64,000 nucleotides of DNA from Verrucomicrobiales bacterium (GTDB taxonomy: Bacteria; Verrucomicrobiota; Verrucomicrobiia; Verrucomicrobiales; DEV007): assembly GCA_002698785.1 (NCBI GenBank), contig PAAG01000047.1:434001-498000 (forward strand), read 5' to 3'. The notes below the pieces were generated by a model. The model was not told the origin of the DNA. It made no database searches and worked only from the letters and a program-made list of their open reading frames with translations. Within the stretch, counting starts at the first letter, position 1; each line of letters starts with the position of its first letter. A program made the position numbers and the translations under genes. Shown here piece by piece: positions 25,297-41,049 of the stretch.

Positions 25297-28200
25297 ATGA
25301 GCAGAAAAGCGTATCCCCTTTTTCTCGCACTCTCCTTTGTGGGGATTTGCGTAGCTTTGGTTTTTTACAAAACAGAGCGAGATCAGGCAATCTCTGCTGA
25401 AACCAGTGCGAGTGAGCAGGCGGCGGCGTCTCTCTCAACGGAAAGCCAACCTGCTGGCGAAGAAATTTCATCGCCCGAGGCCCCGAAGGCTATCGAGCCC
25501 GGTACCGTAGACGATTCCACAGCGGCGCAGAAGTCTACCCGCACTTCAGACGAAAAGCACAAGAGCGTGACCATTTCGGACCAAGCCGCCCAGGCGAAAG
25601 CAGATCAGATCCGCTTTTCAGGGATCACAGGAGCAGATACCGCTATCTCTATACCGAAGTCAGTTATCGAAGACCTGTTTCATTTGTCTCCAGGTGACGA
25701 GTTGACTATCCCCCTGGAACAGCCTCTGACCGGAATTGTGACTCACAACACGATCCATGAAACAGGAGGAAGAGGCTTCGGAATTGCGCTACAGGATTTC
25801 GCCGGCGCTCATTTTTCAATCGAGCAGGACCCTGAAGGTGAAATTTCCGGAAATATTCTGCAGTCAAGAAACACTGATGGCTACAAGGCTTCCGAAGATG
25901 ACTCGGGCGAGAACGTGCTCATCGCCAAAACCCTCACGAGTAACATCGTATGCACTCGTATTCACGAAGACTCTGGAAAGCTCGGGCTCGATCCGGCTCT
26001 TGAAGAGGTAGATGCCGATGCGGTGGCATCAGCAGACGACCCGGAAATGGTGATTCCTGATCTCCAAAGTCGTCCCGGAGCGCGGAGAGTCATCTACCTT
26101 GATTTCGACGGCGAAGTCGTTCAAGGAACTGGCTGGGTAAATGGTGGTCGAATCGACGCCCTTCCCTACGAGAACCAGAACAATATCCCGGGGATTTTTG
26201 CAACGATGTCGGAGGATTTCGCACCCTTCAATGTCAACGTGACCACCATCCGCAGCGTGTTCGATGCAGCTCCTACCGACAGTCGTTGCATGGTCATTTT
26301 CACGCCGACCAACGATGCAGCACCTGGTGCTGGTGGCGTCGCCTTTCTCAACAGTTTTGGTAGCTCAGTCAACTACATGTGCTGGGTCTTCAATCGCGGG
26401 CTGAATGGTGCGGCCGAAGCGGGGAGCCACGAGGTCGGTCACCAGGTTGGTCTACGCCACGATGGCACGTCCTCACGCACCTACTACGGCGGCCACACGC
26501 ATACAGCAACAGGCGTTGAATGGGGTCCCATTATGGGTGCCAGCTATGGACAGAACATCGTGCAATGGTCGCAGGGCGAATACATCGACGCTAATCAGCA
26601 GGAAGACGACTTCGTGAAAATCGTCGACGACCTTCCCTACTTGACCGACGACCATGGTAACTCTCTCGGAACAGCAACCAATATACCGACCGACATCTCC
26701 CAGACATTCTCGCAAACGGGTATCATAGAGCGAAGAAACGATGTCGATGTATTCCGCATCGATATCAACGACGACGGCACCATCACCGCAAGTGCCGATC
26801 CTGCATCGACCTATCGCAACCTCGACGTTAGTTTGGAACTTTTGGATGCATCAGGGAACACCTTGGATTCCGATGCACCGGCTGGTCCCTATGATGCCTC
26901 TGTAAGCGCGAGCGGCCTTGCTGTCGGCACCTATTATCTCCGAGTAACCAGTTCTGGACTGGGGGCGACGGGATTTTCGGAGAATGGATACAACACTTAC
27001 GGAAGCCGCGGCCGATACACACTTACCGGCACGTATCCCTTCCTCCTCATTCCCGACGTTCCAGCCGGGCTTTCGGCAACGGACGGCACCTCCACCGAGA
27101 ACGTATTCGTATCGTGGAATAGCACAGAAGACACAGACGGCTATCGCCTCTACCGAAACACGGTGGACTCTGAAGCAGGAGCAACACTCGTCGCCGACGT
27201 TACCGGCACCTCTTACACCGACACGACGGCGCTGCACAACGTCACCTACTACTACTTCATCAGCGCATACAACACTCAGGGCGAATCCGCTCTTTCTCTC
27301 TCTGAGACAGGGTTCCGACGCCTCCCTCCACCGCAGGTGCCTAATGCAGTTTCAGCCTCCGATGGTTCCTCAACCTCCTATGTGAGGATCAGTTGGGCTA
27401 TTGCCAACTACGCCTATTCATACGAAATCTGGCGAAACTCGGTGAATTCGACATCCGGCGCCTCAATGATCGCCACCACCTCTTCCACGAGTTACGATGA
27501 CACCACCACGCCCGCGGGAGAGATATTTTACTATTTCGTTAGAGCCGTAAATCCAGAGGCAACATCAGCCTACAGCAACGGAAACTCCGGCTACAAAGAC
27601 ATCCCCCCTCCCGCCACTCCAACCGGTGTCGTTGCTTCCGACGGAATCTCAAATCAATACACCGAAGTCAGTTGGAGTTCAGTCGCCCTGGCCGCTGGCT
27701 ACTATGTTCTGAGAAATACAACCAATTCAGCAGCCGGAGGAACTCTCGTCGCACAAGTGGACTCCTCAATTACCTCCATTCAGGACTTCGGAGGTGCTGG
27801 CGGTGTCGTCTACTACTACTTTGTTAGAGCGTTTAACGAGAATGGAAATTCAAACTTCAGCGCTTCCAACACCGGGTATCGTCTCGTAGCGCCACCCACT
27901 ACCCCAACCAATGTAACGGCCACTCGTGCGGAGTTCGAAAATGCGATCCGTGTTGATTGGGCGGAAACATCAGAAACGACTCAATACTATGTGTACAGAA
28001 GCTCTGAGAATGATCCTGACACAGCCATTCTGAGGGAAAAAGTCACCAACAACCGGTACTACGACCCCGATGCTCTTCCCGGCAGAGTGTACTACTATTT
28101 CATCAGGTCGGAGAACAGTGCGGGCACATCAGCTCTTTCTTTGGGAGCCCTCGGATTCGTTGCCGCAGCGGACCCCGAAGACGACGCTTACGAAAACAAC

Positions 28201-29031
28201 GACGTCTTTGAGTTTGCTCAGCCCATCACCCGGGCTGAGAACGAATGGCTGTCAGAATTTGATGGCCCCGGATTCTCCAGGGATGCAGACTGGTTCTGTT
28301 TCGAACTCGATCCCACATCCGACCAGATTGACGTGATTCTCTCCACGGAGTTCACCGCCGAGATCGTTGGTCTGGACCTCTACGACGAGTCGGGCAACCT
28401 TCTCGACTCCGGAGCCGAAGGTGCCAACTCCTTTGTGACAATCAGCTACGAAGGAGCTACTCCCGGAGCGACCTACTATGTTGCGGTGACGACCTCAGAT
28501 TACGCAGGTTTGGAATACGATCTCATCTGGAAATCCATCGACCCTGGTGAGAGCGACGCTGTTGTTGATGAGATGATTGGCTTCAGTTCGACCAGACAGA
28601 TAGGGGATGGCGTTGTCAACGAATCGGCCGCGGCACAGACAATCACCAGTATCAGCAAAAGCCGAAGGACCCATAAGGCTTACTTTACGATTGAGAACGA
28701 AAGCGCCGGCACTCAAAAATACTACACCGGTGGAAATGGCGGCAGCCGATTTTTCAGCGTTACCTACCTCCAACTCATCAACGGAACTTGGCAGAATGCC
28801 ACAGGCGATGTGATTCGGCATACAGCAGAGAGTAACCTGCAACCTTTTGAATCGAGCGATTTCCAGGTATTCGTTCGACCGGGAAAATTCAACAAGACCA
28901 GGACAAAGTATCACTTCGTCGTCCTGAAAACCGAACTGGAGTCCTTCCCTGACGTTGTCGATACGAATCGACTGAATGTCATCAAGCAGGGCAAGAAGAA
29001 GAAGCGCAAGCGCAGAAAAAAGCGTCGCTGA
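25297..29031 (+). CDS. Secreted metzincin-like metalloprotease with Fn3 repeats
   Basis: 1244-residue exported protein: signal/anchor segment (about 5-24), Ala/Glu-rich linker, a propeptide-like region, and a zinc metalloprotease domain (about 265-450) with HEVGHQVGLRHD at 378-389, an HExxHxxGxxH/D metzincin site, followed by GPIMGAS as a likely Met-turn. Then come a pre-peptidase C-terminal (PPC)-like domain (about 465-580), four Fn3-like repeats of about 92 residues (585-955), each ending in a YYYFI/V-A-N pattern, a second PPC-like domain, and a last beta domain. The final 15 residues are almost only Lys and Arg. It probably degrades extracellular proteins. It converges on the kinase-like gene six bases later. 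Confidence 0.82.
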   Translation: MSRKAYPLFLALSFVGICVALVFYKTERDQAISAETSASEQAAASLSTESQPAGEEISSPEAPKAIEPGTVDDSTAAQKSTRTSDEKHKSVTISDQAAQAKADQIRFSGITGADTAISIPKSVIEDLFHLSPGDELTIPLEQPLTGIVTHNTIHETGGRGFGIALQDFAGAHFSIEQDPEGEISGNILQSRNTDGYKASEDDSGENVLIAKTLTSNIVCTRIHEDSGKLGLDPALEEVDADAVASADDPEMVIPDLQSRPGARRVIYLDFDGEVVQGTGWVNGGRIDALPYENQNNIPGIFATMSEDFAPFNVNVTTIRSVFDAAPTDSRCMVIFTPTNDAAPGAGGVAFLNSFGSSVNYMCWVFNRGLNGAAEAGSHEVGHQVGLRHDGTSSRTYYGGHTHTATGVEWGPIMGASYGQNIVQWSQGEYIDANQQEDDFVKIVDDLPYLTDDHGNSLGTATNIPTDISQTFSQTGIIERRNDVDVFRIDINDDGTITASADPASTYRNLDVSLELLDASGNTLDSDAPAGPYDASVSASGLAVGTYYLRVTSSGLGATGFSENGYNTYGSRGRYTLTGTYPFLLIPDVPAGLSATDGTSTENVFVSWNSTEDTDGYRLYRNTVDSEAGATLVADVTGTSYTDTTALHNVTYYYFISAYNTQGESALSLSETGFRRLPPPQVPNAVSASDGSSTSYVRISWAIANYAYSYEIWRNSVNSTSGASMIATTSSTSYDDTTTPAGEIFYYFVRAVNPEATSAYSNGNSGYKDIPPPATPTGVVASDGISNQYTEVSWSSVALAAGYYVLRNTTNSAAGGTLVAQVDSSITSIQDFGGAGGVVYYYFVRAFNENGNSNFSASNTGYRLVAPPTTPTNVTATRAEFENAIRVDWAETSETTQYYVYRSSENDPDTAILREKVTNNRYYDPDALPGRVYYYFIRSENSAGTSALSLGALGFVAAADPEDDAYENNDVFEFAQPITRAENEWLSEFDGPGFSRDADWFCFELDPTSDQIDVILSTEFTAEIVGLDLYDESGNLLDSGAEGANSFVTISYEGATPGATYYVAVTTSDYAGLEYDLIWKSIDPGESDAVVDEMIGFSSTRQIGDGVVNESAAAQTITSISKSRRTHKAYFTIENESAGTQKYYTGGNGGSRFFSVTYLQLINGTWQNATGDVIRHTAESNLQPFESSDFQVFVRPGKFNKTRTKYHFVVLKTELESFPDVVDTNRLNVIKQGKKKKRKRRKKRR

Positions 29032-29037
29032 GGAAAG

Positions 29038-31491
29038 TCACCGCGAGGAAACTTTGAGGGACGCCCTCTCAAAGCAGCGATTCGCAATTGAAGCATCGCC
29101 AAGTTCCTGACAAATATCTCCATAGGCCCGAAAGACCTTGCCGAGACGTTCTTTCCACTTGGAACGCAAAGGTTCAGCGATCACAGACTCATTTTCCAGA
29201 ATGGAGTAAGCAGCGTCCGCAGTCTCAACACCTAACAAAGCGAGCTTGAGTCCGGCTTCGTCGTCTCCGTCCATAAACTCCAGATGGCTCAGCCTCGCCT
29301 CTGCCAGTGCGAGAGTACCAGCAACGTGGTCTGGCTGAGCTGCCAACGCTTCTTTCAGGGCTTCGATCCCTTGGACAGACAGCCGGTATCCAGCACTCCA
29401 CCGCGCCTCATTTCTCTCCAGTTCCCCGAGGTGAACCAGGCTCCGGCACAGCAGTACAGCTACCTCGACATCCTCCGGGCTCTCGGTATTCAGCGGGCTC
29501 AACAGTCGCAACCCCTCGTTGTAAAGCTGATCGAGATCCTCTGGCTCCGCTTCCATTTGGGCGAACAATTCTCCCAGTTCGAGGTAGCTCGATGCCAACT
29601 GGATACTCTGCAACGCGGAGAAGCCATTCACTCCCCGCAGTTCTTCCAGAGTTTCCATCGCTGCCACGTGTGCATTGATTGCCTCTTCTGTGCTTCCCGT
29701 TTCGCGCAGGGAAAATGCGGCCCGAAACTGCAATTTCCCAATCAACTCAACAATCTCCTCCTTGTTTGCAGCCGTATCGCGCAGCGCTGAAGCGAGTTCT
29801 GCGGACTTGGAGTACGCCTGAATCGCATCTCGATACTTGCGATGAGCTTCATACGCCTTTCCCAGCTTGAAAGTTGTTCCTGCGAGTCGCGTGACAACCT
29901 CTTCCGAGTTCGGCTTAAATTCTATCAATCGATCAAAGTGTTCTACCGCTTTTTCAAGAGCCATCATCGACTCGTGACTAATCGGATTGTCCAGAAGCGA
30001 ACTCACATTCTCGAAACTGTCGGCCAATCGCATGTGAATGTCGTAGACCACATCTTGCCTTTTCTGGTATCGCGCAGACACCTCTCTGAAGGTGGTAATC
30101 GCAGCAATAAAATGGGATTCGGCTTTGTCTCTCAGACCAATTCGCTTTTCGATATGCGCCAGACTGTGCAAGGCGCGCGCTTTCTCCAGGGCGCTGTCTT
30201 CTGAACCGCTTTCCCCTTTCTCGACATCCTCAAGAATTTTCACGTAGTAGTCCCTCGATTTTTCGAGATCTTCCTTTCGAAGCGTGGCAACACCACTTCC
30301 TCCCGCATTATCCCCCTGCGCCATTCTTTGAAAGAACGAATCGGCCGCCTCCCGGGAAGACTTCAGATCTGTCACCGTCTCCGCCCACCTTTCATCGAGG
30401 TGCGAAATGTGTGCCTTCTGGGAGAGAACCACCTGATCCAACTCCGTTACCTTGTTCTGGAAAAAGTAGGTTTTCTTCAGGTAGTCGATCAGGTAATAAG
30501 TTGCCCCGAGAAATGAGATTCCCAGAAGCAATGCGACCGCTCTTGCCCCGAACAGTTTAGCTCTCTGCTTCCTCTTCTCCTTTAAGACTCGGTCTTCCGC
30601 ATCCTCCAGGGCAAACTGCTGTTGGAGGCCACGAAATTTGTTCCGAACCTCCCTCATGTCGACCGGCCGTTTTGCTGGATCGAGCTCGAGGCATTGCTCA
30701 ATCACCTCGCGATAGAGCTTAAACTCCCTGCTGACGCCAAATGACATTCCCCACGAAATATTCGGACAATCGTAGACTTCGGTCACATAAGCACCAAAAT
30801 CGATTCCGACAGGTCTACCGCCGCTGGATGTGCAATCATGTTCCCACTGCTTGATGTATTTGGTCCCCCGGGGCAGGTGACCGTTCAGTAGCCAGTAGGC
30901 AACCAGCCCAAAACTGTAGACCTCCCACCTCTGCATGTTTCCATTGTCCCAGCCCCGCCCACCGTCGCATAGCTGATCGGGTGCAGCAAAAAAGGTCGAT
31001 GGCCCCAGGTCGATGTGGTGGACGTCTCCCACGAGGCCAGTGCCCATATCAGTAAGGACAGGTCGAAGAGAATTGTTTCGCTCCGCCAGGAAAATATTTC
31101 CCGGATGAAGGTGACCGTGCACCACCCCGTGCTTATGCAAATGCCCGAGGGTCTCCGCCATCTGCCGGATCATGTTCCAGACAACAGGCTCCTTTAACGA
31201 CTTCGGTCGCTCCAGGAGAACTCCATCGATTCGCTCCTGAAGAACACAATACGGAGGACTCGAAAAACGAAAATCATACACCTGCGCCAATCCTTCAGAA
31301 ATCGACTCTTCCACTGGAATACGCTCAAGACGAAGATAGGTGCGCTCCATTAGACGGCGATCAATTGCCATCGAGCTGTATTTTTTCAGCAGAAGAGTCG
31401 ATTCGTGGCCGACCACCTCAAATACATCACCGCACGTCCCGGAGCCGAGAATATTCCCGGTCTCGACCGAGTTCAAATCGATGCCATTCAT
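29038..31491 (-). CDS. Kinase-like membrane protein with TPR-like repeats, catalytic Asp missing
   Basis: 817 residues with a PknB-like kinase fold (about 10-290), one TM segment (about 316-337) and a helical TPR-like region to the end (about 410-800). The glycine loop is GSGTCGDVF (17-25) and a Lys pair follows in LLLKKYS. The catalytic loop, normally HRDLKPxN, reads HGHLHPGN (126-133), with His in place of the Asp base; the DFG motif is DMG (149-151). It is therefore probably a pseudokinase or a very divergent kinase. ATG 31491 is used; a TTG precedes it. In the PVC group such proteins link sensing to large assemblies. Numbers refer to the form beginning at the TTG. Confidence 0.8.
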   Translation of the reverse strand: MNGIDLNSVETGNILGSGTCGDVFEVVGHESTLLLKKYSSMAIDRRLMERTYLRLERIPVEESISEGLAQVYDFRFSSPPYCVLQERIDGVLLERPKSLKEPVVWNMIRQMAETLGHLHKHGVVHGHLHPGNIFLAERNNSLRPVLTDMGTGLVGDVHHIDLGPSTFFAAPDQLCDGGRGWDNGNMQRWEVYSFGLVAYWLLNGHLPRGTKYIKQWEHDCTSSGGRPVGIDFGAYVTEVYDCPNISWGMSFGVSREFKLYREVIEQCLELDPAKRPVDMREVRNKFRGLQQQFALEDAEDRVLKEKRKQRAKLFGARAVALLLGISFLGATYYLIDYLKKTYFFQNKVTELDQVVLSQKAHISHLDERWAETVTDLKSSREAADSFFQRMAQGDNAGGSGVATLRKEDLEKSRDYYVKILEDVEKGESGSEDSALEKARALHSLAHIEKRIGLRDKAESHFIAAITTFREVSARYQKRQDVVYDIHMRLADSFENVSSLLDNPISHESMMALEKAVEHFDRLIEFKPNSEEVVTRLAGTTFKLGKAYEAHRKYRDAIQAYSKSAELASALRDTAANKEEIVELIGKLQFRAAFSLRETGSTEEAINAHVAAMETLEELRGVNGFSALQSIQLASSYLELGELFAQMEAEPEDLDQLYNEGLRLLSPLNTESPEDVEVAVLLCRSLVHLGELERNEARWSAGYRLSVQGIEALKEALAAQPDHVAGTLALAEARLSHLEFMDGDDEAGLKLALLGVETADAAYSILENESVIAEPLRSKWKERLGKVFRAYGDICQELGDASIANRCFERASLKVSSR

Positions 31492-31719: not shown

Positions 31720-32622
31720 TCAGGAAGCCTCAGCGAGCTTTCTGCGTTCCCGCACCCGCCATTCCGTCGGGGAGGTTCCAGCCAACTGCTGAAAACTACG
31801 ATTGAACTGAGAAAGAGATCCAAACCCAACATCGTAGGCAACCTCCGTCACCCGTGCATCGGGTTTTCTGAGTCTGCACTTCGCCCATTCCACACGACGC
31901 CGCGTCAGGTATTGCTTAAAAGTGAGCCCGGTAGCCTGCTTAAAGACCTTGCAGAAATGGTGCAGGCTCAAATTCACGTGTTTCGCCACATCAGCGAGCT
32001 CAATTTTATCCGCCAGGTGCGCACTTACGAACTGTCTGGCCTTAATCACCACATCGGGCTCGGAATGCCTCTGTTCCAGGATCAACCTTTCGGCCAGCTC
32101 GGACAGATGCCCCGCAAAAACAGACAGCAGGGTTATCATTCCCTCATACTGATCCTCATTAATTTTGCGCGTCTGCTTCCACGCTGTTTCCAGCCGCTCC
32201 AATTCACTTGGATCGTAGTCCATTTTTACCAATTCCTCCCGCACTCCCTCCCATTCGGCGTCGTCCACATCCCTCGTAAATACTTGGCCAGTAGTCAAAT
32301 ACGCCACCGGAATCTGACCTGCCAGAACCGGAACCGCCGTTTCTGTCAGACCTGCAAAGCACTCAAAGGCCTTCGGTTTTTCGCTGACCTCTTTCACCAC
32401 ACAATGCGCGGCGCGGGCGCACTCCGGACACCGATTGTGCTCATTTAATATCCGGCAGAACGGATTCGCCTTCTCACCATTCGCAGGAGCCATCGCCGGG
32501 TTGTCCGAATGAATCTGCAGATTCATCCCTGTAACCGCCTCGAAGGCAGACTGAAACTGCCCCAATTCGTGAGAATTGCGGATTTTATTGAACAAAACTT
32601 CGGACTCTTTGTAGTCAGCCAT
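31720..32622 (-). CDS. PocR-domain AraC-family regulator
   Basis: 300-residue transcription factor. The N-terminal half is a PocR ligand-binding domain: a helix with FEAVTGMNLQIH, then a Cys cluster (CRILN.., CPECARAAHC, ECFAGLTE) and VPVLAGQIPVAYLTTGQVF. The C-terminal 100 residues form the two helix-turn-helix units of AraC proteins (ELADVAKHVNLSLHHFCKVFKQ.. and VTEVAYDVGFGSLSQFNRSFQQLAGTSPTEWR). PocR domains bind small organic ligands such as hydrocarbon derivatives; the Cys cluster may bind metal or sense redox state. The start is set at ATG 32622. This domain pair is very common in Verrucomicrobiota. It is divergent from the cbb3 oxidase operon, a possible target. Confidence 0.88.
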   Translation of the reverse strand: MADYKESEVLFNKIRNSHELGQFQSAFEAVTGMNLQIHSDNPAMAPANGEKANPFCRILNEHNRCPECARAAHCVVKEVSEKPKAFECFAGLTETAVPVLAGQIPVAYLTTGQVFTRDVDDAEWEGVREELVKMDYDPSELERLETAWKQTRKINEDQYEGMITLLSVFAGHLSELAERLILEQRHSEPDVVIKARQFVSAHLADKIELADVAKHVNLSLHHFCKVFKQATGLTFKQYLTRRRVEWAKCRLRKPDARVTEVAYDVGFGSLSQFNRSFQQLAGTSPTEWRVRERRKLAEAS

Positions 32623-32735
32623 GGTCGACCGGAAATTACGCTGCAAAATCGTAGCAGAACGCAATTTTTGCGCAACCCTTCGCTAAAAATGCGGAGCATC
32701 GCCTCTAGAGCCGATCAAATGTAACGCAGGAAAGA

Positions 32736-32777: not shown

Positions 32778-32987
32778 ATGCAAGTCATACTCCTCACAAC
32801 GCTGTTCAGCGTACTCTTCGCTGCGCTCTTCTTACTCCTCTTTGTACGCACGAGGCAGCATACCGGCGGATGCGCCGATCAGGACGCTCTCCTCCCCTTT
32901 TCCGACGAGGCAGGCCCTTCGTCCTCCTTTCAATCTACCAAACCAAACTCGACCACCACCACCTCCTCAAACCATGAGCAGCGATAA
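32778..32987 (+). CDS. Small CcoS-like membrane protein
   Basis: 69-residue protein with one strong N-terminal TM segment (about 2-23) followed by a short polar tail containing the pattern RTRQHTGGCADQDALLPF. Its size, topology and position directly before ccoN resemble CcoS, the small assembly protein needed for cofactor insertion in cbb3 oxidases, but the conserved CcoS residues (GQFDD type) are not clearly matched. The stop overlaps the ccoNO start by 14 bases, so translation is coupled. It may be a true CcoS variant or a lineage-specific oxidase subunit. Confidence 0.5.
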   Translation: MQVILLTTLFSVLFAALFLLLFVRTRQHTGGCADQDALLPFSDEAGPSSSFQSTKPNSTTTTSSNHEQR

Positions 32988-35514
32988 TCCGACAGGAAGA
33001 AAAATAACCATCGAATTCGACGATAAGACGACACGGTGGTTTATGCTGGCCTCCATTGGCTGGGGCGTTGTCGCCATGCTCGTCGGCGTCATTGCAGCCT
33101 TCCAGCTCAACTTCTGGCAAATGAACGGCAAGTTCTTCGAATGGATCACATTCGGATACTTCCAGACTGAGGGTATCGAATTCCTCACCTTCGGCCGTCT
33201 TCGCCCACTGCACACCAACGCCGCCATTTTTGCTTTCGTCGGGAACATGATGTTCGCCGGGATCTACTACTCCACCCAGCGACTCTGTAAGACTCGGATG
33301 TTCTCCGACCTCCTTTCCAAAATACACTTCTGGGGCTGGCAACTCATCATCGTAGGTGCCGCCATCACTTTGCCCGCCGGATTGACGCGCGGGAAAGAAT
33401 ACGCTGAACTGATCTGGCCCATTAATTTGGCAGTGGTGGTCATCTGGGTCGTCTTTGCAGCGAATTTTTTCCTCACGCTGAAGATCCGGCGGGAAAAATC
33501 TCTCTACGTCGCACTGTGGTTCTACATCGCTACGATCATCACCGTGGCGATGCTCTACATCGTCAACCACCTGCAGATACCGACCAGCCTCACACACAGC
33601 TACCCTGTGTTCGCAGGTGTTCAGGATGCACTCGTCCAGTGGTGGTATGGCCACAACGCCGTGGCATTCTTCCTCACCACGCCAATTCTCGGGATCATGT
33701 ATTATTACCTGCCGAAGGCAGCAGGTCGCCCCGTCTACTCCTACCGCCTGTCGATCGTGCACTTCTGGTCGCTGGTCTTCATCTACATCTGGGCAGGTCC
33801 ACACCACCTCCTCAATACCGCCCTTCCGAAATGGCTCCAGGTCCTTGGAATGTTCTTCAGCCTCATGCTTTGGGCTCCGTCCTGGGGCGGAATGCTCAAC
33901 GGTCTGCTCACCCTCCGCGGTGCCTGGGATAAACTGAGAACCGATCCAGTGATCAAATTCTTCGTCGCCGGCGTGACCTTCTACGGCATGTCCACATTCG
34001 AAGGACCACTGCTCTCCATCCGCTCTGTGAACTCACTCGCTCACTACACCGACTGGATCGTCGGCCACGTGCACAGCGGGACACTCGGCTGGAATGGCTT
34101 CATGGCAGCCGGCATGTTCTACTGGCTGGCACCACGACTCTGGGGTCGAGAACTCTGGTCGAAAAACCTCGCCAACTTCCACTTCTGGATCGGCCTCGTC
34201 GGCATCCTGCTATACGTGGCATCCATGTGGTTCGCTGGAGTGATCCAGGGCCTCATGCTCAACGAAACCGACCCGAGCGGCACACGCCTCGTCAACGAAT
34301 TCGTCCAGACCGTAGACAAGATCAACGGGCTCATGCTCATCCGCGCAATCGGTGGAACCTTCTACCTCGCTGGATTCATCCTGCTCGTCATCAACATCTG
34401 GAAAACCGTGAAGTCCGGCATCCCCGTCAACGAAACTCGCGAAGTCTTCGACGATCCGGAAATGAAAAAGGACAAGATGACTTGGTCCGCCGCCTTCCGC
34501 AACGACCCCATCGCCTTCACCTTCTGGGGCCTGTTCTTCGGGATCATCTGGTTCTTCCTGCCTCCCGGAGCCAGCCACATGGCACTCCTCTGCACCCTCG
34601 CCTTTGCGGCATTGGCAGTATACCGATTCAAGAAAGACAAGATGGATTGGGCAAAGTGGTACGACGACCTGTCGGAAAACTACCTCCCCTTCTCCGTCCT
34701 CGTGCTCATCGCCGTGGCAATCGGCGGTGGTATCCAGATCATCCCGACAATCACCGTCAACCGCGCCGTGAATGTGGAAGACCGACTCCAGAAAGTCTAC
34801 ACCCCGCTGGAGCTGGCCGGTCGCGACATTTACGTCAGCGAAGGTTGCTACAACTGTCACTCCCAGATGATCCGGACCCTCGTGCCCGATGTCCTTCGCT
34901 ACGGAGATTACTCCCGACTCGGCGAATCCATCTACGACCACCCCTTTCAGTGGGGCTCGAAGCGCACCGGTCCCGACCTCGCCCGCGAAGGCGGCAAGCG
35001 AGGCAACAGCTGGCACTACCTCCACATGCTCAATCCACGTAGCGTGAGCCCGCAATCTCGAATGCCCAACTACCCATGGCTGTTCGAAAAGAAAACGGAC
35101 TTCAAAGCACTTCCTGGCAAAATCGCCGTGCAGCAGAGAATGGGCGTCCCCTTCCCTATCATGACCCCAGAAGAGATCGAACAGCACGCCCGTGAGCAGG
35201 CTCTCGAAATCGCCCAGTCGCTCGTCGACGAACAGGTCAAGATCCCTCTCAAAGAGGGTCAGGAAGGTCCGGCAACCGCCAGCGCGGCCCGCGATCACTT
35301 AGCCGGCAAAGAAGTCGTCGCACTCATCGCGTATCTCCAGAAACTCGGTCAATTCGAAGAAATCGCTCCGAAAGAGACACCAGATCCGGTCAAGCCACGG
35401 GTGATCAAACCTGCCATCCCAGATGAAAACCGGATGACTCCCGAGAACGTGCCCGAGATACCCAGTGTCACCGAATCCGAAGAATCCGACGCCCCTGTCG
35501 CTCAAGCCAACTGA
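32974..35514 (+). CDS. ccoNO: Cytochrome cbb3 oxidase, fused subunits I and II (CcoNO)
   Basis: 846-residue fusion of the catalytic subunit CcoN and the monoheme cytochrome c subunit CcoO, which reduces O2 to water with high affinity and pumps protons. The CcoN part (about 1-480) has the low-spin heme ligand His80 in RPLHTNAAIF, WWYGHNAV and AGPHHLLNT (CuB and heme b3 ligands), and DWIVGHVHSG near the second heme ligand. After further TM helices, the CcoO part carries the heme c motif CYNCH at 625-629 and the distal Met segment SQMIRTL/SRMPNY. The C-terminus is a Pro/Glu-rich tail. ATG 32974 follows the small CcoS-like gene by overlap. Such fusions are found in several PVC and Bacteroidetes-type lineages. 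Confidence 0.95.
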   Translation: MSSDNPTGRKITIEFDDKTTRWFMLASIGWGVVAMLVGVIAAFQLNFWQMNGKFFEWITFGYFQTEGIEFLTFGRLRPLHTNAAIFAFVGNMMFAGIYYSTQRLCKTRMFSDLLSKIHFWGWQLIIVGAAITLPAGLTRGKEYAELIWPINLAVVVIWVVFAANFFLTLKIRREKSLYVALWFYIATIITVAMLYIVNHLQIPTSLTHSYPVFAGVQDALVQWWYGHNAVAFFLTTPILGIMYYYLPKAAGRPVYSYRLSIVHFWSLVFIYIWAGPHHLLNTALPKWLQVLGMFFSLMLWAPSWGGMLNGLLTLRGAWDKLRTDPVIKFFVAGVTFYGMSTFEGPLLSIRSVNSLAHYTDWIVGHVHSGTLGWNGFMAAGMFYWLAPRLWGRELWSKNLANFHFWIGLVGILLYVASMWFAGVIQGLMLNETDPSGTRLVNEFVQTVDKINGLMLIRAIGGTFYLAGFILLVINIWKTVKSGIPVNETREVFDDPEMKKDKMTWSAAFRNDPIAFTFWGLFFGIIWFFLPPGASHMALLCTLAFAALAVYRFKKDKMDWAKWYDDLSENYLPFSVLVLIAVAIGGGIQIIPTITVNRAVNVEDRLQKVYTPLELAGRDIYVSEGCYNCHSQMIRTLVPDVLRYGDYSRLGESIYDHPFQWGSKRTGPDLAREGGKRGNSWHYLHMLNPRSVSPQSRMPNYPWLFEKKTDFKALPGKIAVQQRMGVPFPIMTPEEIEQHAREQALEIAQSLVDEQVKIPLKEGQEGPATASAARDHLAGKEVVALIAYLQKLGQFEEIAPKETPDPVKPRVIKPAIPDENRMTPENVPEIPSVTESEESDAPVAQAN

Positions 35515-35533
35515 ATCCTAACCAACTCTCCTC

Positions 35534-35725
35534 ATGTTTCGTCGCGTTATCCTCGAAGACTGGCATATGTGGGTCCCTTACATCTGCTTTGCACTCACCT
35601 TCGCTGCATTCATCCTCATCGTCCTTTGGGCCGTCTTCTTGAAGAAATCCCGGGTCGATTACGAATCCCGACTTCCCCTCGAAGACGACACTGATCTGAA
35701 AGACATCACGACCAACCAGAACTGA
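35534..35725 (+). CDS. ccoQ: Small cbb3 oxidase subunit, CcoQ-like
   Basis: 63-residue protein with a single TM helix (about 14-36) and a charged cytoplasmic tail ending in DITTNQN. Size, topology and position between the CcoNO fusion and CcoP fit CcoQ (subunit IV), which stabilises the complex but is not catalytic. CcoQ sequences are poorly conserved, so the call rests mainly on position. Confidence 0.75.
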   Translation: MFRRVILEDWHMWVPYICFALTFAAFILIVLWAVFLKKSRVDYESRLPLEDDTDLKDITTNQN

Positions 35726-35732
35726 AATCACC

Positions 35733-36335
35733 ATGCAGAAATCATCCGACACCTCTGATGGGATCACACTCCGGGACCACGTCTACGACGGAATCGAAGA
35801 GTACGATCAAAAGCTGCCAAACTGGTGGCTCTTCACCCTCTACATCACCATGGTCTGGTTCGTGATCGCCTGGGTCGCTTACTACCAGCTACCTGTAAAT
35901 GCACCCACCGACTACGAGAAACTCCACAAAGAGATCGCTCAGATCGAGTTGAAGAAACAGGCCGAGCTGGAAAAAATGCTCGCTTCCCTGAACGACGACT
36001 CACTCCTTGAAATGAGCAAAGATCCCAACCACACCTCAGCAGGTCAGGCCATTTACGAATCAAAATGCGCAGCCTGTCACGGTGTCGATCTCACTGCTAC
36101 ACTTGGTGGCGTCAACCTCCCCGGAGTTCCCCTCAACGACAGCGAATGGATCTACGGCGGCAACCCACTGCAGATCATGTACACCGTCACCCACGGATCG
36201 CCCGACATCACCAAAGGGATGATCGCTTGGCAGGCCCAACTTAGCCCGTCCGAAATTGCCCAGGTAACCTCCTACATCCTGAGCAAACAGACGGCTCCTC
36301 CAGAACCGGCACTGAAACCACGAACGGAAATCTAA
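35733..36335 (+). CDS. ccoP: cbb3 oxidase subunit III (CcoP), single-heme form
   Basis: 200-residue cytochrome c subunit that passes electrons to CcoO. The N-terminus has the CcoP signature DGIEEYDQKLPNWWLFTLYITMVW with one TM helix (about 32-52), then a long coiled helix, and one heme c site CAACH at 112-116 with a distal Met expected in KGMIAW near 170. Typical proteobacterial CcoP has two hemes (about 300 residues); this one has only one, so the electron path must be shorter. It starts seven bases after ccoQ and is clearly part of the same operon. Confidence 0.93.
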   Translation: MQKSSDTSDGITLRDHVYDGIEEYDQKLPNWWLFTLYITMVWFVIAWVAYYQLPVNAPTDYEKLHKEIAQIELKKQAELEKMLASLNDDSLLEMSKDPNHTSAGQAIYESKCAACHGVDLTATLGGVNLPGVPLNDSEWIYGGNPLQIMYTVTHGSPDITKGMIAWQAQLSPSEIAQVTSYILSKQTAPPEPALKPRTEI

Positions 36336-36390
36336 TCTTAGCATATAGTCCTATGTGTGATCATTGCCAACACCACAGTAGCAACTCCTC

Positions 36391-37788
36391 ATGCTCACAT
36401 CAAAAAAACCAAACCTCGAGTCCCTCACCTCCATCAACGACGATGGATCAAGGTACTTCCTCCACCCCGCAGACGTCCGTGGCAACTTCACGTTGTGGCG
36501 GCGCTTGTTCGGGGCACTGTTGCTCGCGATCTACGTCCTCCTCCCCTGGATCCCGATCAACGGAAACCCAGCCCTCTTCTTCGACCTAGCAGAGCGGCGC
36601 TTCCACTTTTTCGGACTCACCTTCCTCGCAGAAGACCTCTGGATCGGGTTCTTCCTCCTCACCGGTCTCGGGTTCTCCCTGTTCTACGTCACTGCCATCG
36701 CAGGTAGACTATGGTGCGGTTGGGCCTGTCCCTACACCGTATTTCTAGAGCACATCTATCGACGCATCGAGCGCTTCATAGACGGCGACTCGATGAAGCG
36801 CCGAAAACTCGACAACGCCCCTTGGACAAAATCCAAGGCCATTCGTCGCATCGTCAAACACGGACTCTTCATCCTCGTTTCGCTCATCATCGCACACATC
36901 TTTGTTTCCTACTTCGTATCGATCCCGCGGTTATACGAATACATGCAGCAGTCCCCGCTGAACAACGCCAAGGTCTTCGGCGTCATGATGTTTCTCACCG
37001 TCTGTTTGTATTTCGCATTCAGTTGGTTCCGGGAGCAGTTTTGCATCATCCTTTGTCCCTATGGCAGGCTCCAGTCCGCCCTCACCGATGACGACACCAT
37101 CATCATCGGATACGACGAAAAACGTGGCGAACCTCGCGGGAAAAAATCAGACCCGAACACAGGCGACTGCATCAACTGCAGCCGTTGCGTCCAAGTCTGC
37201 CCGACCGGCATCGACATCCGCAACGGCCTTCAGCTCGAGTGCATTGGCTGCGCCAACTGCATCGACGCCTGCAACGAGATCATGGACAAAACCGGGCAGG
37301 AGCGCGGTCTCATCCGCTACGACTCACTCAATGGTCTCCAGCGCCAGAAAAAGAGAATCTGGCGCCCTCGCATAGCACTCTACACCGGTTTGATGTGCCT
37401 CGGTGCCGCCGTACTCGGCCTCTTCATTTCCGGACTACACTCCGCCAAAGTCGAACTCATCCGTATGCCCGGACAACCCTACTACGTCACCGACGACGGA
37501 GTCCGCAACCAGTATCGCGTTCAGCTTATCACCAAGCAAAACGAAGAGACCTCCATGAAGATGCGCTACTCGGGACTCCCCGAAGGCGCCGTAGTATCCG
37601 GCATTGAAGAAGAATTCACACTGAAGGCCGGAGAGGAAAGCATGAAAACCCTCATCATCATGGTGCCCAGAGCCAGCTTCACCGGTGACTTCAGTTTCAC
37701 CATCGAAGCCGACGTCACCCCCGGAGATTTCACCATCACCGACTCCATCGACTTTCTCGGGCCCAGCGCCTATACCCTCAACCAGTAA
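36391..37788 (+). CDS. ccoG: cbb3 oxidase assembly ferredoxin-like protein CcoG
   Basis: 465-residue membrane protein with about five TM helices and two [4Fe-4S] sites. It begins with the family block DGSRYFLHPADVRGNF, has the membrane CxxxCP motif WCGWACPYTVFLE near residue 110, and the ferredoxin clusters CINCSRCVQVCP (about 260-271) and CIGCANCIDAC (about 280-290). The C-terminal third is an IG-like periplasmic domain. CcoG reduces Cu(II) for delivery to the oxidase. ATG 36391 lies 55 bases after ccoP; an overlapping Cys/His-rich frame starting at 36353 is judged not to be a gene. Confidence 0.94.
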   Translation: MLTSKKPNLESLTSINDDGSRYFLHPADVRGNFTLWRRLFGALLLAIYVLLPWIPINGNPALFFDLAERRFHFFGLTFLAEDLWIGFFLLTGLGFSLFYVTAIAGRLWCGWACPYTVFLEHIYRRIERFIDGDSMKRRKLDNAPWTKSKAIRRIVKHGLFILVSLIIAHIFVSYFVSIPRLYEYMQQSPLNNAKVFGVMMFLTVCLYFAFSWFREQFCIILCPYGRLQSALTDDDTIIIGYDEKRGEPRGKKSDPNTGDCINCSRCVQVCPTGIDIRNGLQLECIGCANCIDACNEIMDKTGQERGLIRYDSLNGLQRQKKRIWRPRIALYTGLMCLGAAVLGLFISGLHSAKVELIRMPGQPYYVTDDGVRNQYRVQLITKQNEETSMKMRYSGLPEGAVVSGIEEEFTLKAGEESMKTLIIMVPRASFTGDFSFTIEADVTPGDFTITDSIDFLGPSAYTLNQ

Positions 37789-37794
37789 ACTAAC

Positions 37795-37944
37795 ATGATC
37801 ACCTTCTTACGAGAGCGCCCCTGGATTTGGATCGTCTTTGCATTCGTGATCCTCATCAGTAGCTGGGTAGTCCTTTTTAAAATCGCCGGCAAATATCGCC
37901 CTGAACCGATAGAAATTCAGACCGTCGAAAGCCATGAGCGTTGA
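37795..37944 (+). CDS. 49-residue membrane protein in the cbb3 operon
   Basis: Very small gene, read directly from the bases: ATG 37795 to TGA 37942-37944. The product has a short basic start (MITFLRERPW), one TM helix (WIVFAFVILISSWVVLFKIA) and a charged tail ending HER. It starts six bases after ccoG stops and overlaps the next gene's start by 11 bases, so it is tightly packed in the operon. Its position matches the FixH slot between ccoG (fixG) and ccoI (fixI), but FixH is larger; it may be a reduced FixH-like or a new small assembly subunit. No homology is claimed. Confidence 0.65.
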   Translation: MITFLRERPWIWIVFAFVILISSWVVLFKIAGKYRPEPIEIQTVESHER

Positions 37945-38647
37945 TCCGGAAACCATCACCCTCAGTGCCATCTTTGTAGCCGGTCTAGCGACCAGCCTGC
38001 ACTGCGCCGGCATGTGCGGACTTCTCACCTGCGGTCTCGGCATCGCAGGGCGAGGCCCCGCACTCGCCTCCGTTGGCATCTACCACTTCTCCCGACTTGT
38101 CGGCTACAGCATCGCCGGAGCCATCTTCGGATTCATCGGTGGCCAGTTCGGTCTCGACGTCCCACTGGGAGGCATCGCGTGGCTCCCCCTCCTCTTAATC
38201 GTCTTTCTCATCGCGATCGTTTTCGGCTTGGACAAAAAAGTCGGCGCCATCCCCGGATTGGGAAAGATCACCATGCAGATCCGCATGCGAACCCTCCAGT
38301 TCCCCCTGAATGCACGCGCCGCCATTACCGGCCTGGCAACCCCACTACTTCCCTGCGGTCCACTCTATGCCATCCTCGCCCTTGCACTTGCCAGCGGCTC
38401 AGCCGTTCGCGGAGTCGAGATCATGCTCGCCTTCGGCCTCGGAGCAATGCCCGCCATCTGGGCCGTACAGATTGGCTCCTCCTGGGTAAACCAGCGCCTC
38501 GGCGCCAAAGGATTCCTCATTGCAAAACGTACCCTCGCAGCGACAGCCGCCTTATCACTGATGTGGCACTTTGCCCTCCCTATCGGAACCACCGCGAATG
38601 AAGACGGGGGCGAAATGAAATGCCGCTGCGACGTAGAACTTCCATGA
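37934..38647 (+). CDS. TauE/SafE-like (DsbD_2) membrane protein of the cbb3 locus
   Basis: 237-residue membrane protein with six TM helices, two of them carrying paired Gly/Pro-rich repeats (LATSLHCAGMCGLLTCGL near residues 17-34 and LATPLLPCGPLYAILALALASGS near 134-156). This is the sulfite exporter TauE/SafE branch often encoded between ccoG and ccoI in cbb3 loci and thought to help metal or thiol handling (CcoH/DsbD-like). The HCAGMCG Cys pair could bind copper or exchange disulfides. Its stop overlaps the start of ccoI by four bases (ATGA). Confidence 0.82.
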   Translation: MSVDPETITLSAIFVAGLATSLHCAGMCGLLTCGLGIAGRGPALASVGIYHFSRLVGYSIAGAIFGFIGGQFGLDVPLGGIAWLPLLLIVFLIAIVFGLDKKVGAIPGLGKITMQIRMRTLQFPLNARAAITGLATPLLPCGPLYAILALALASGSAVRGVEIMLAFGLGAMPAIWAVQIGSSWVNQRLGAKGFLIAKRTLAATAALSLMWHFALPIGTTANEDGGEMKCRCDVELP

Positions 38648-41049
38648 GCACCGCCGCGAAAAAACTGACTGCTCTCGACACCGATTCGATCCCCGCGATC
38701 GAAATCCGGAAGTGCAGTCATTGCGGCAACACCTTCCAGCCGCGATTCGAAGCAGAGCAGTTCTGCTGCTCTGGTTGCCGGGTCGTTCACGAACTCATCC
38801 AGACCGGAGGCTTCGGTTCCTTCTACGAACTCCTCGGCCGTCGCGTCCTTCAGCCCGCCGACAACGGAGAGATCCCAGCCGACCAATTGGCCGAAATCGA
38901 AGAGGCCGTCATCGAGGCAGAAAAAGTCGACGAAGCCAGCCCGGCAAGCCTCGTTCTCCGAATCGGAAACCTCTCCTGCACCGCCTGCGTCTGGCTCATT
39001 GATCACCTCTTCCAACGCCACACAGGCTCCCTGAAAATCTCCAGCGACACCGCACGCTCCACCCTCACATTGTGGTGGAACCCCGGCGAGTTCGACGTCT
39101 CCGCCTTCGTTCAGGATCTCTACAAATACGGCTACCCAGCCAGCCTCGTAAACGAACTCGATGACGAAGCCCCGGGCGAAAGCCGAGCCCTCGTCACCCG
39201 TCTCGGAGTGACAGGCGGTCTCGCCCTCAATACCATGGCATTCACCTTGCCATCGTACCTCGGTATCGAAACAACCGACGACCTCGCGAGGCTCTTCACC
39301 CTCGTAGCCTTCGCATCCGCCACACTCGCACTCGCAGTCGGTGGCTCCTACTTCTTCCAGAGAGCGTGGAAAGCACTTCGTCTCCGCGCACTCCACATGG
39401 ACGTTCCCATCTCCCTCGGGCTCATCGCCGCATGGCTCGGATCCGTGGGCGGACTTCTCTTTGGAGTCGAAGACATGCTCTACTTCGACTTCGTCGCCAC
39501 CTTCACTTTTCTGATGTTGTCAGGGCGCTGGCTTCACCTTCGCTTGCTCGAGAAAAACCGACGCCAGCTCTGGGCACGCGAGCGCGACCTTTCCGCCACA
39601 TTCCGAATCAAAGACGGAAACCGCGAACGCATCCCGCTGAAAAAAGTCGAACCCGGAGACATCCTCGAAATCCCCGGCGGCGCGATGCTACCCGTCGATT
39701 CCGAACTCCTCGGAGACCACAACGTATTCCATCTCGATTGGATAAACGGCGAACCCGATCCCGTCCCATTCCGCACAGGACAGCAAATTCCTGCTGGTGC
39801 CCGCAACGGCGCCAGACATCCCATCGAGGTGAAAGCCCTTCATCATTTCACCGACAGCTTTCTCGACCATCTTCTGCGGAAACAAGACACCACAACAGAA
39901 GAGAGCAAAGAGCACCGAAGCCCCGTCCTGCGCTACTACCTTCTCGCCGTTCTTATCACAGCATTCGCCGGGGGAACAACTTGGCTCGCCATGGGAAAAG
40001 GAGTCTCCGACTCTCTCCAGGTCTGCATCTCCATACTCGTCGTTTCCTGCCCCTGCGCCCTCGGCCTCGCCCTTCCCCTTCTCGACGAAATGCTGCTTTC
40101 CCGTCTCAAGCAGAAAGGGATATTTCTCCGCAACCACTCACTCTGGAAACGCCTTCGGCACATCCGCAACCTGGCCTTCGACAAGACCGGCACCCTCACC
40201 GAGCCAGTCAAACGCCTCACAAATCCAGACGTCCTCGAGACACTCGACGGCGAAGCGCTCCAGGCCCTTCGCTGCCTCACACATGACAATCGTCATCCCG
40301 TGGGCCGAGCCATTCACGAAGTCCTCATCGCAAGATTTGGACATTCTAACAAATCATCAAACTTTCCTGTACAGGGATTCCCCAGTCGTGGCGTCAGTTG
40401 TCGCGTCGGAGGAGGACGCTGGCGTCTTGGTCGCCGCGGCTGGGCCTGCCCTGAGGAAACCGATCCGGAAGAAACCGGCTGCACCCTGTCCAAAGACGGC
40501 GTGCACGTAGCCACCTTCCACATCGACGAAGCCATCCGCGACGGAGCCATCGACCAGATGAACCGACTTCGAAAACATGGCTTCAACCTTCGCATCCTCA
40601 GCGGCGATCCCGATCTCCTCCGCGTTCGCGAAACCGCCCACAAACTCGGCATCCCTGCCAAAGACGTCTACGCCGACCTCTCCGCCGAAGAGAAAGCCGA
40701 TCTCATCACAGAGAACGGAAGCAGCGAGGCACTCTTCATCGGAGACGGAGGCAACGACAGCCTCGCCTTCCGAGCCTCTGGAGCCAGTGGAACACCCGCC
40801 ACCGGAATACGAGCCATCGAGAGCCAGGCAGACTTCGTCTTCACCGGGCGCGGCTTCCACGCCCTCAGCCAGCTCATCGACGCATCGGTAAAGAGAAAGC
40901 ACCTCGTCACCACCATCTTCGTAGTGGCAGTCGCCTACAACATCATCGCCGTTGGCCTCTGCCTCACCGGCCACATGAACCCCCTCCTCGCCGCCGTCCT
41001 CATGCCCCTCAGCTCCCTAGTCACAACAGCCATCGCGACAAGAGTGTAG
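38644..41049 (+). CDS. ccoI: Copper-transporting P-type ATPase CcoI/FixI
   Basis: 801-residue P1B ATPase that exports copper toward cbb3 oxidase assembly. Order: N-terminal zinc-ribbon-like region (CSHCGN near 18-23 and CCSGC near 43-47), a heavy-metal-associated-like domain with CTACVWLID near 115, two early TM helices, the metal path motif SCPCALGLALP (about 470), phosphorylation site DKTGTLTE (about 515-522), ATP-binding domain and GDGGNDS hinge near 700. ATG 38644 is used because it overlaps the previous stop by four bases. It ends the cbb3 locus; a GC-rich hairpin follows. FixI-type ATPases give slow copper efflux needed for the active site rather than detoxification. Confidence 0.93.
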   Translation: MSTAAKKLTALDTDSIPAIEIRKCSHCGNTFQPRFEAEQFCCSGCRVVHELIQTGGFGSFYELLGRRVLQPADNGEIPADQLAEIEEAVIEAEKVDEASPASLVLRIGNLSCTACVWLIDHLFQRHTGSLKISSDTARSTLTLWWNPGEFDVSAFVQDLYKYGYPASLVNELDDEAPGESRALVTRLGVTGGLALNTMAFTLPSYLGIETTDDLARLFTLVAFASATLALAVGGSYFFQRAWKALRLRALHMDVPISLGLIAAWLGSVGGLLFGVEDMLYFDFVATFTFLMLSGRWLHLRLLEKNRRQLWARERDLSATFRIKDGNRERIPLKKVEPGDILEIPGGAMLPVDSELLGDHNVFHLDWINGEPDPVPFRTGQQIPAGARNGARHPIEVKALHHFTDSFLDHLLRKQDTTTEESKEHRSPVLRYYLLAVLITAFAGGTTWLAMGKGVSDSLQVCISILVVSCPCALGLALPLLDEMLLSRLKQKGIFLRNHSLWKRLRHIRNLAFDKTGTLTEPVKRLTNPDVLETLDGEALQALRCLTHDNRHPVGRAIHEVLIARFGHSNKSSNFPVQGFPSRGVSCRVGGGRWRLGRRGWACPEETDPEETGCTLSKDGVHVATFHIDEAIRDGAIDQMNRLRKHGFNLRILSGDPDLLRVRETAHKLGIPAKDVYADLSAEEKADLITENGSSEALFIGDGGNDSLAFRASGASGTPATGIRAIESQADFVFTGRGFHALSQLIDASVKRKHLVTTIFVVAVAYNIIAVGLCLTGHMNPLLAAVLMPLSSLVTTAIATRV

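Follow-up and report, generated by a model that had tools for sequence, protein, structure and literature searches.

A putative receptor pseudokinase family of Verrucomicrobiales with two acidic catalytic residues lost and an ATP-holding site mostly retained

Introduction

PknB-type PASTA kinases have a kinase domain with an intact HRD motif inside the cell, one transmembrane (TM) helix, and a PASTA sensor outside. Bacterial pseudokinases are little studied. PMC12599244 describes a classification of more than 300,000 bacterial kinases in which seven of the 42 families are wholly or largely pseudokinases. The families named there as ActPs1-3, GLW, CP1, DYD, and DLHK are bacterial Ser/Thr kinase folds with degraded motifs, and most of the reviewed families lose ATP or metal motifs, either alone or together with HRD (CP1 is mixed). 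The same review describes EssB/YukC, a membrane-anchored bacterial pseudokinase with a scaffold role, in which the glycine loop is degraded along with all three motifs.

A different pattern of loss is described for the animal receptor HER3 (ErbB3). In PKA numbering, HER3 lacks Glu91 (replaced by His) and Asp166 (replaced by Asn) and keeps the Lys, Asn171, and Asp184 (PMC4718504). According to that account, HER3 binds ATP at ~1 μM with one Mg, adopts an αC-out form, and activates its partners allosterically. The JAK JH2 domains are described as similar, and HER3 itself shows weak autophosphorylation (PMC4718504; PMC3014569). In the current study, we characterized a bacterial membrane protein with a kinase domain whose losses follow the pattern of HER3, and the family to which it belongs.

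Results and Discussion

The gene lies in a stretch of 64,000 nucleotides (hereafter the window) from a 7.0-Mb Verrucomicrobiales genome, and is an intact open reading frame without an internal stop (Table 1). Rfam and tRNA scans of the whole window found nothing. The protein belongs to the protein kinase superfamily (PF00069), with the Pfam Pkinase model matching residues 10-277 (E = 3.8e-14; 53.2 bits vs. a cut-off of 31.7), and several Pfam TPR models match from residue 438 on. AlphaFold2, using 36 aligned sequences, predicted a bilobal kinase (residues 1-295), a helix that spans the TM stretch (residues 279-338), and a TPR superhelix (residues ~405-816) with a mean pLDDT of 86.7; the pTM of 0.54 indicates that the relative placement of the kinase and TPR halves in the model is not reliable. 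The linker was weakly predicted, with 10-residue blocks of 41-55 between residues 331 and 400. By VIA-align, residues 1-293 resembled the kinase domains of ARAF, PknS, and PknA (Z ~22; rmsd 3.3-3.6 over 243-246 residues) and residues 401-800 resembled the TPRs of LGN (Z ~25), bearing in mind that match lists from VIA-align and Foldseek are no evidence of absence for any family. The initial annotation had proposed a TM helix followed by TPR-like repeats, an arrangement recovered by the structure prediction it had called for, with the repeats also matched by the Pfam models. When 67 relatives were scanned for a TM helix, a hydrophobic peak above the threshold was found in 58, and the kinase side of the peak was the more positively charged in 64. 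Since the excess of positive charge places the kinase inside, the kinase domain is predicted to be cytoplasmic and the TPRs to lie on the outer side of the membrane.

Table 1. Positions, within the window, of the putative receptor pseudokinase gene, its domains and active-site residues, and its upstream neighbours.
Feature	Position	Strand	Evidence or remark
Putative pseudokinase-TM-TPR receptor gene	29038..31491	-	817 aa; ATG at 31491
Pseudokinase domain, residues 10-290	30622..31464	-	Pfam Pkinase; AlphaFold2; VIA-align
Juxtamembrane segment, TM helix (~residues 313-334), and coiled-coil linker, residues 291-404	30280..30621	-	Charge and hydrophobicity; AlphaFold2; conservation
TPR superhelix, residues 405-816, predicted extracytoplasmic	29044..30279	-	Pfam; charge; AlphaFold2; VIA-align
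Glycine loop GSGTCGDV, residues 16-23	31423..31446	-	All three Gly present; translation, alignment
β3 Lys36, kept	31384..31386	-	Translation; kept in 86/95 linker-bearing rows without Asp
Thr51 at the putative αC Glu position (K+15)	31339..31341	-	Gapless count from Lys36
Catalytic loop HGHLHPGN, residues 125-132; His127 (31111-31113) for the catalytic Asp	31096..31119	-	Codons; profile alignment
DMG for DFG, residues 148-150	31042..31050	-	Metal-binding Asp kept; translation, alignment
Activation-loop His158-His159	31015..31020	-	Translation; possible histidine cluster with His127 and His129
PocR-domain AraC-type regulator	31720..32664	-	Separates the pseudokinase gene from the cbb3 cluster in the window and in G007, and in no other locus compared
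Divergent cbb3 oxidase cluster: fused CcoNO, FixP/CcoP, FixG/CcoG-like, DsbD_2 protein, P-type ATPase	32842..41049	+	

The codons of residues 125-132 read CAC GGT CAC CTT CAT CCG GGA AAT, and profile alignments put His127 in the column of the catalytic Asp, flanked by His125, Asn132, and Asp148. A shifted alignment that restores an intact Asp, a possibility raised in the initial annotation, is ruled out by this framing of the motif, and a sequencing error behind His127 is ruled out by the occurrence of the His in 12 aligned sequences. The translation and codons thus agree with the substitutions first noted (HGHLHPGN and DMG) and with the reported retention of the glycine-rich loop and Lys. Three further changes had been missed, namely Thr51 at the αC Glu position, Gly126 in place of the HRD Arg, and a Glu (in WEVYSFG) at the position of Asp190. 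The C-lobe residues Pro171 and Arg275 are retained. PMC12599244 uses a working definition of a pseudokinase as a domain missing at least one of the β3 Lys, HRD Asp, and DFG Asp; the window protein falls within it, having His127 for the HRD Asp. Judged by its sequence, this is a kinase domain that lacks both acidic residues needed for phosphotransfer (the HRD Asp and the αC Glu) and has the set that would hold ATP with one Mg (the glycine loop, Lys36, Asn132, and Asp148).

Relatives are widespread within the order. At E ≤ 1e-60, a profile of 36 sequences matched 180 of 239 genomes, representing 42 of 48 genera, with sister kinases that have an HCD motif counted among the matches, and in a phylum-level search (E ≤ 1e-30) 20 of 288 genomes matched, 16 of them within the same order. 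Genus g19 of family f2 gave no match in the listed genomes at E ≤ 1e-60, and some other genomes likewise gave none. From 184 kinase-domain matches in the loci we obtained 147 rows, all distinct and at least 150 residues long, of which 28 have HRD, 24 have HCD (23 of one clade plus L140), one has HAD (L186), and 94 are without the Asp; setting aside L055, which is outside the family, leaves 93 family rows in the last group. Among the 94 family rows outside the HCD sister clade, 93 have N, H, G, S, or C in place of the catalytic Asp. His is found in 12 rows, all of them genus-level orthologues that include the window gene, and the relatives mostly have Asn. Since His is confined to one genus and the absence of Asp is family-wide, these alignments indicate that the His is derived and local to one genus-level subfamily and that the loss of Asp is older. 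The initial annotation had asked whether the His is shared in related genomes; it is shared by the 12 orthologues, and the emphasis on His was misplaced.

The second acidic residue is lost with the same consistency. Position K+15, counted without gaps from the β3 Lys, is Glu or Asp in none of the 93 family rows without Asp and is Glu in all 23 rows of the HCD sister clade; we infer that it is the αC Glu position from the HCD sequences and from its place in a predicted helix (residues 45-56). The gapless count was used for the family because indels made profile-column and MAFFT-column tallies unusable there; by MAFFT column, the αC Glu is present in 26 of 28 HRD rows. The ATP- and Mg-binding set is mostly retained: of the 95 linker-bearing rows without Asp in a later set of 157 rows, 86 have the Lys, 81 have the Mg-binding Asn, and 88 have the DFG Asp. 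A branch with HGG (L058 and its relatives L121, L167-L177, and L180) is more degraded, many of its members being without Lys, Asn, or DFG Asp (kept in 9, 3, and 9 of 14, respectively), and the Asn132 position is Ser or Thr in two of the 12 HGH rows. Given these losses, ATP binding cannot be universal in the family, as far as residues predict it. The glycine loop, His125, Pro171, Arg275, and Asp278 are invariant across the 36 sequences, the most distant of which is 19% identical to the window protein. Within the same genome, HRD is kept in 23 of 27 alignable kinase loci (L057, L059, and L060 fall outside the 27), and the exceptions are the window gene, L048 (HCD), L058 (HGG), and L055 (HCG). 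The last of these (C27:130031-130675) is a degenerate kinase that also lacks the catalytic-loop Asn and the DFG Asp.

In a tree of all 147 rows, the family and the HCD clade together (117 rows) split from the HRD kinases with a support of 99, and HCD was nested in the clade without Asp on a weak backbone. In a thinned tree of 100 rows, a branch with support 88 set 80 pseudokinases apart from the HCD clade (99) and the HRD outgroup (100). Some branches of these trees are weakly supported; the thinned tree is consistent with one ancestral loss of the catalytic residues. The HCD clade (L048 and 22 relatives) comprises the nearest Asp-bearing relatives in the tree. It has the same kinase-TM-TPR order and a common C-lobe segment but, unlike the family, keeps both the Asp and the αC Glu in all members, does not match the linker profile described below, and has the kinase domain as its most conserved part (0.76 among 14 sequences). 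Because HCD is outside in the thinned tree and has the αC Glu, retention of Asp in this clade is simpler than its re-gain. An HCD kinase is also unlikely to be an obligate partner of the family, since nearly all of the f4 genomes listed have a single match at E ≤ 1e-60. One Asp-bearing sequence, L186 of genome G042, has HAD with Ala at K+15 and falls inside the pseudokinase clade in the best tree; a tree with L186 constrained outside the clade was not rejected (p-AU 0.31), and its frame runs to the end of its contig piece. Its Asp may be a re-gain or a remnant.

In the subfamily of the window protein, conservation is concentrated between the two domains. Among 11 HGH orthologues, the juxtamembrane-TM-coiled-coil segment had a mean pairwise identity of 0.77, against 0.55 in the kinase domain and 0.56 in the TPR part. 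Fourfold-degenerate sites, compared in 12 sequences, were nearly equal in the linker, kinase, and TPR parts (0.344, 0.327, and 0.321), indicating from these alignments that the constraint on the linker acts at the protein level in this subfamily; the same comparison gives no support to an overlapping gene or RNA element as the reason why the linker is conserved. Strong conservation of the linker is special to the window's subfamily, since two other pseudokinase lineages, of 13 and 7 sequences, conserve the linker less than any other part (0.416 and 0.385). A linker profile matched 95 of 104 rows without Asp and none of 53 rows with Asp; it was built without L048, L058, and L121, and many of the 95 matching rows were in the profile, those of the L058 branch mostly not. 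The view of the linker as a mark of all pseudokinases is weakened by its poor conservation in the two lineages and by the nine rows without Asp, L055 included, that have no match.

How does the family compare with described systems? PknB-type PASTA kinases share the layout of inside kinase, TM helix, and outside domain, and differ from the window protein, which has a TPR part and no HRD Asp; the score against NCBIfam PknB_PASTA was 19.1 bits, far from the cut-off of 450, and that against the MAD6 defence kinase (NF047741) was 41.8 bits vs. a cut-off of 460. EssB/YukC is likewise a membrane-anchored bacterial pseudokinase, with a degraded glycine loop that is intact in the window protein (PMC12599244). 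In contrast to the losses of ATP or metal motifs in ActPs1-3, GLW, CP1, DYD, and DLHK, the family studied here has lost the base and the αC Glu and kept the ATP/metal set. As characterized in PMC12599244, ActPs2 has Arg for the β3 Lys and mostly a DFG deletion, DYD has the same Arg and a DYD motif, GLW has GLW for HRD and no β3 Lys, and DLHK and CP1 have no TM region, whereas the window protein has Lys36, Asp148 within DMG, HGH, and one predicted TM helix. The main text of that review makes no mention of Verrucomicrobia, TPR, or HGN, and among the literature listed on pseudokinases (Verrucomicrobia, Planctomycetes, TPR, Hanks-type) no description of the family was found. It is apparently an undescribed family of putative bacterial membrane pseudokinases, set apart from the seven pseudokinase families by the review's descriptions, and may be among the 42 families under another label.

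With HER3, the family shares the loss of the αC Glu and HRD Asp and, for the most part, the retention of the β3 Lys, catalytic-loop Asn, and DFG Asp; HER3 is a membrane receptor (PMC4718504), as the family is proposed to be. HER3 differs in belonging to an animal tyrosine-kinase family with another ectodomain, and in its established ATP binding and partner. The resemblance is read as convergent, an analogy and not membership. Since the same paired loss and mostly the same kept set recur in a single-pass protein, we regard it as fairly probable that the window protein is a receptor pseudokinase that holds ATP and acts allosterically, its TPRs lying outside and its dead kinase inside, a HER3- or JAK2 JH2-like solution independently reached in Verrucomicrobiales. 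In such a receptor, ATP would be bound but unused, holding the kinase domain in an αC-out-like form. The TPRs could bind a peptide or protein outside, and binding might be conveyed along the coiled coil and TM helix by an altered oligomer or helix register, after which the pseudokinase domain would engage or release a cytoplasmic partner, either an active kinase or another effector. By analogy with HER3, the signal is probably relayed by shape and not by the addition of phosphate. The sensing or scaffolding by TPRs proposed in the initial annotation fits this anatomy, with TPRs predicted on the outer side and an LGN-like superhelix in the model. Of its two suggestions for the kinase domain, that of a pseudokinase is favored by the family-wide loss of Asp, the loss of the αC Glu, and the kept ATP site, and that of an atypical kinase is disfavored. 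An order-wide bacterial receptor family would thus show the pattern of HER3 and JAK JH2, with two acidic catalytic residues lost and the ATP holder mostly kept. If ATP binding and allosteric output hold true, allosteric pseudokinases of the receptor type would have an independent origin in bacteria. The family would then allow a direct test of why a kinase fold persists after catalysis is lost, with the HCD sister clade for comparison and L186 as a member that bears the Asp.

An atypical but active kinase, which transfers phosphate slowly by means of His127 (Asn in relatives) or substrate-assisted chemistry, is unlikely but is the strongest of the alternatives. The ATP and Mg residues are kept, as are Pro171 and Arg275 of the C-lobe, and HER3, with the same two losses, is described as autophosphorylating weakly on vesicles (PMC4718504; PMC3014569). 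However, a chemistry that needs position 127 should fix the residue there, and in the family any of N, H, G, S, and C occurs; the 93 rows without Asp have lost the αC Glu as well. Given the weak activity of HER3, phosphotransfer inactivity cannot be read from sequence alone. Another ATP-dependent chemistry of the SelO and SidJ kind (AMPylation or glutamylation) is a more doubtful alternative. Retention of the Lys and DFG Asp without the HRD Asp is also the pattern given for these two enzymes (PMC12599244), but no SelO model was among the Pfam matches at E ≤ 1, a search in which HMMER filters drop weak matches, and structural comparison of the kinase half ranked ordinary protein kinases highest. 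That the gene is a redundant, decaying kinase with no present role is very improbable, for while catalytic residues are gone and residues of the ATP site have been lost in turn in the HGG branch, long open frames are maintained across an order, the Lys, Asn, and Asp are selectively kept, and the invariant residues listed above persist in distant relatives.

A separate reading concerns the window's subfamily, in which the emptied active site might have been rebuilt as a histidine cluster, making the dead kinase a metal, haem, or redox sensor for a terminal oxidase. His127, His129 (forming HxHxH with His125), and His158-His159 are all present in 10 of 12 HGH rows. The build-up appears stepwise, the HH pair being already present in family f4 with HGNLR, followed by His129 with HGNLH, and then by His127. 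The context cited for the sensor is that HGH genes lie divergent beside a cbb3 cluster containing a P-type ATPase. We consider this reading improbable.

The upstream cbb3 cluster of the window begins with CcoN and CcoO fused in one 890-codon frame (32842-35514, + strand), COX1 followed by FixO. CcoNO is upstream in 10 of 11 testable HGH loci (the window, L063-L068, L070, L071, and L073; absent at L069), L061 being left out of the count with its 444 upstream bases, and in none of four non-HGH loci (HGN or HCS) of the same genus (L072, L074, L077, and L078). This association could be explained by shared descent. Outside the genus, no recurrent neighbor was found widely among the loci compared. 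On the other side of the gene, the window encodes a 907-aa protein that combines a metallo-β-lactamase/RMMBL nuclease-like part with a full ATP-dependent DNA ligase (20453-23176, - strand), a sulfatase with HEAT repeats (23296-25188, + strand), and a 1244-aa protein with a weak match to M12 metallopeptidases (25297-29031, + strand).
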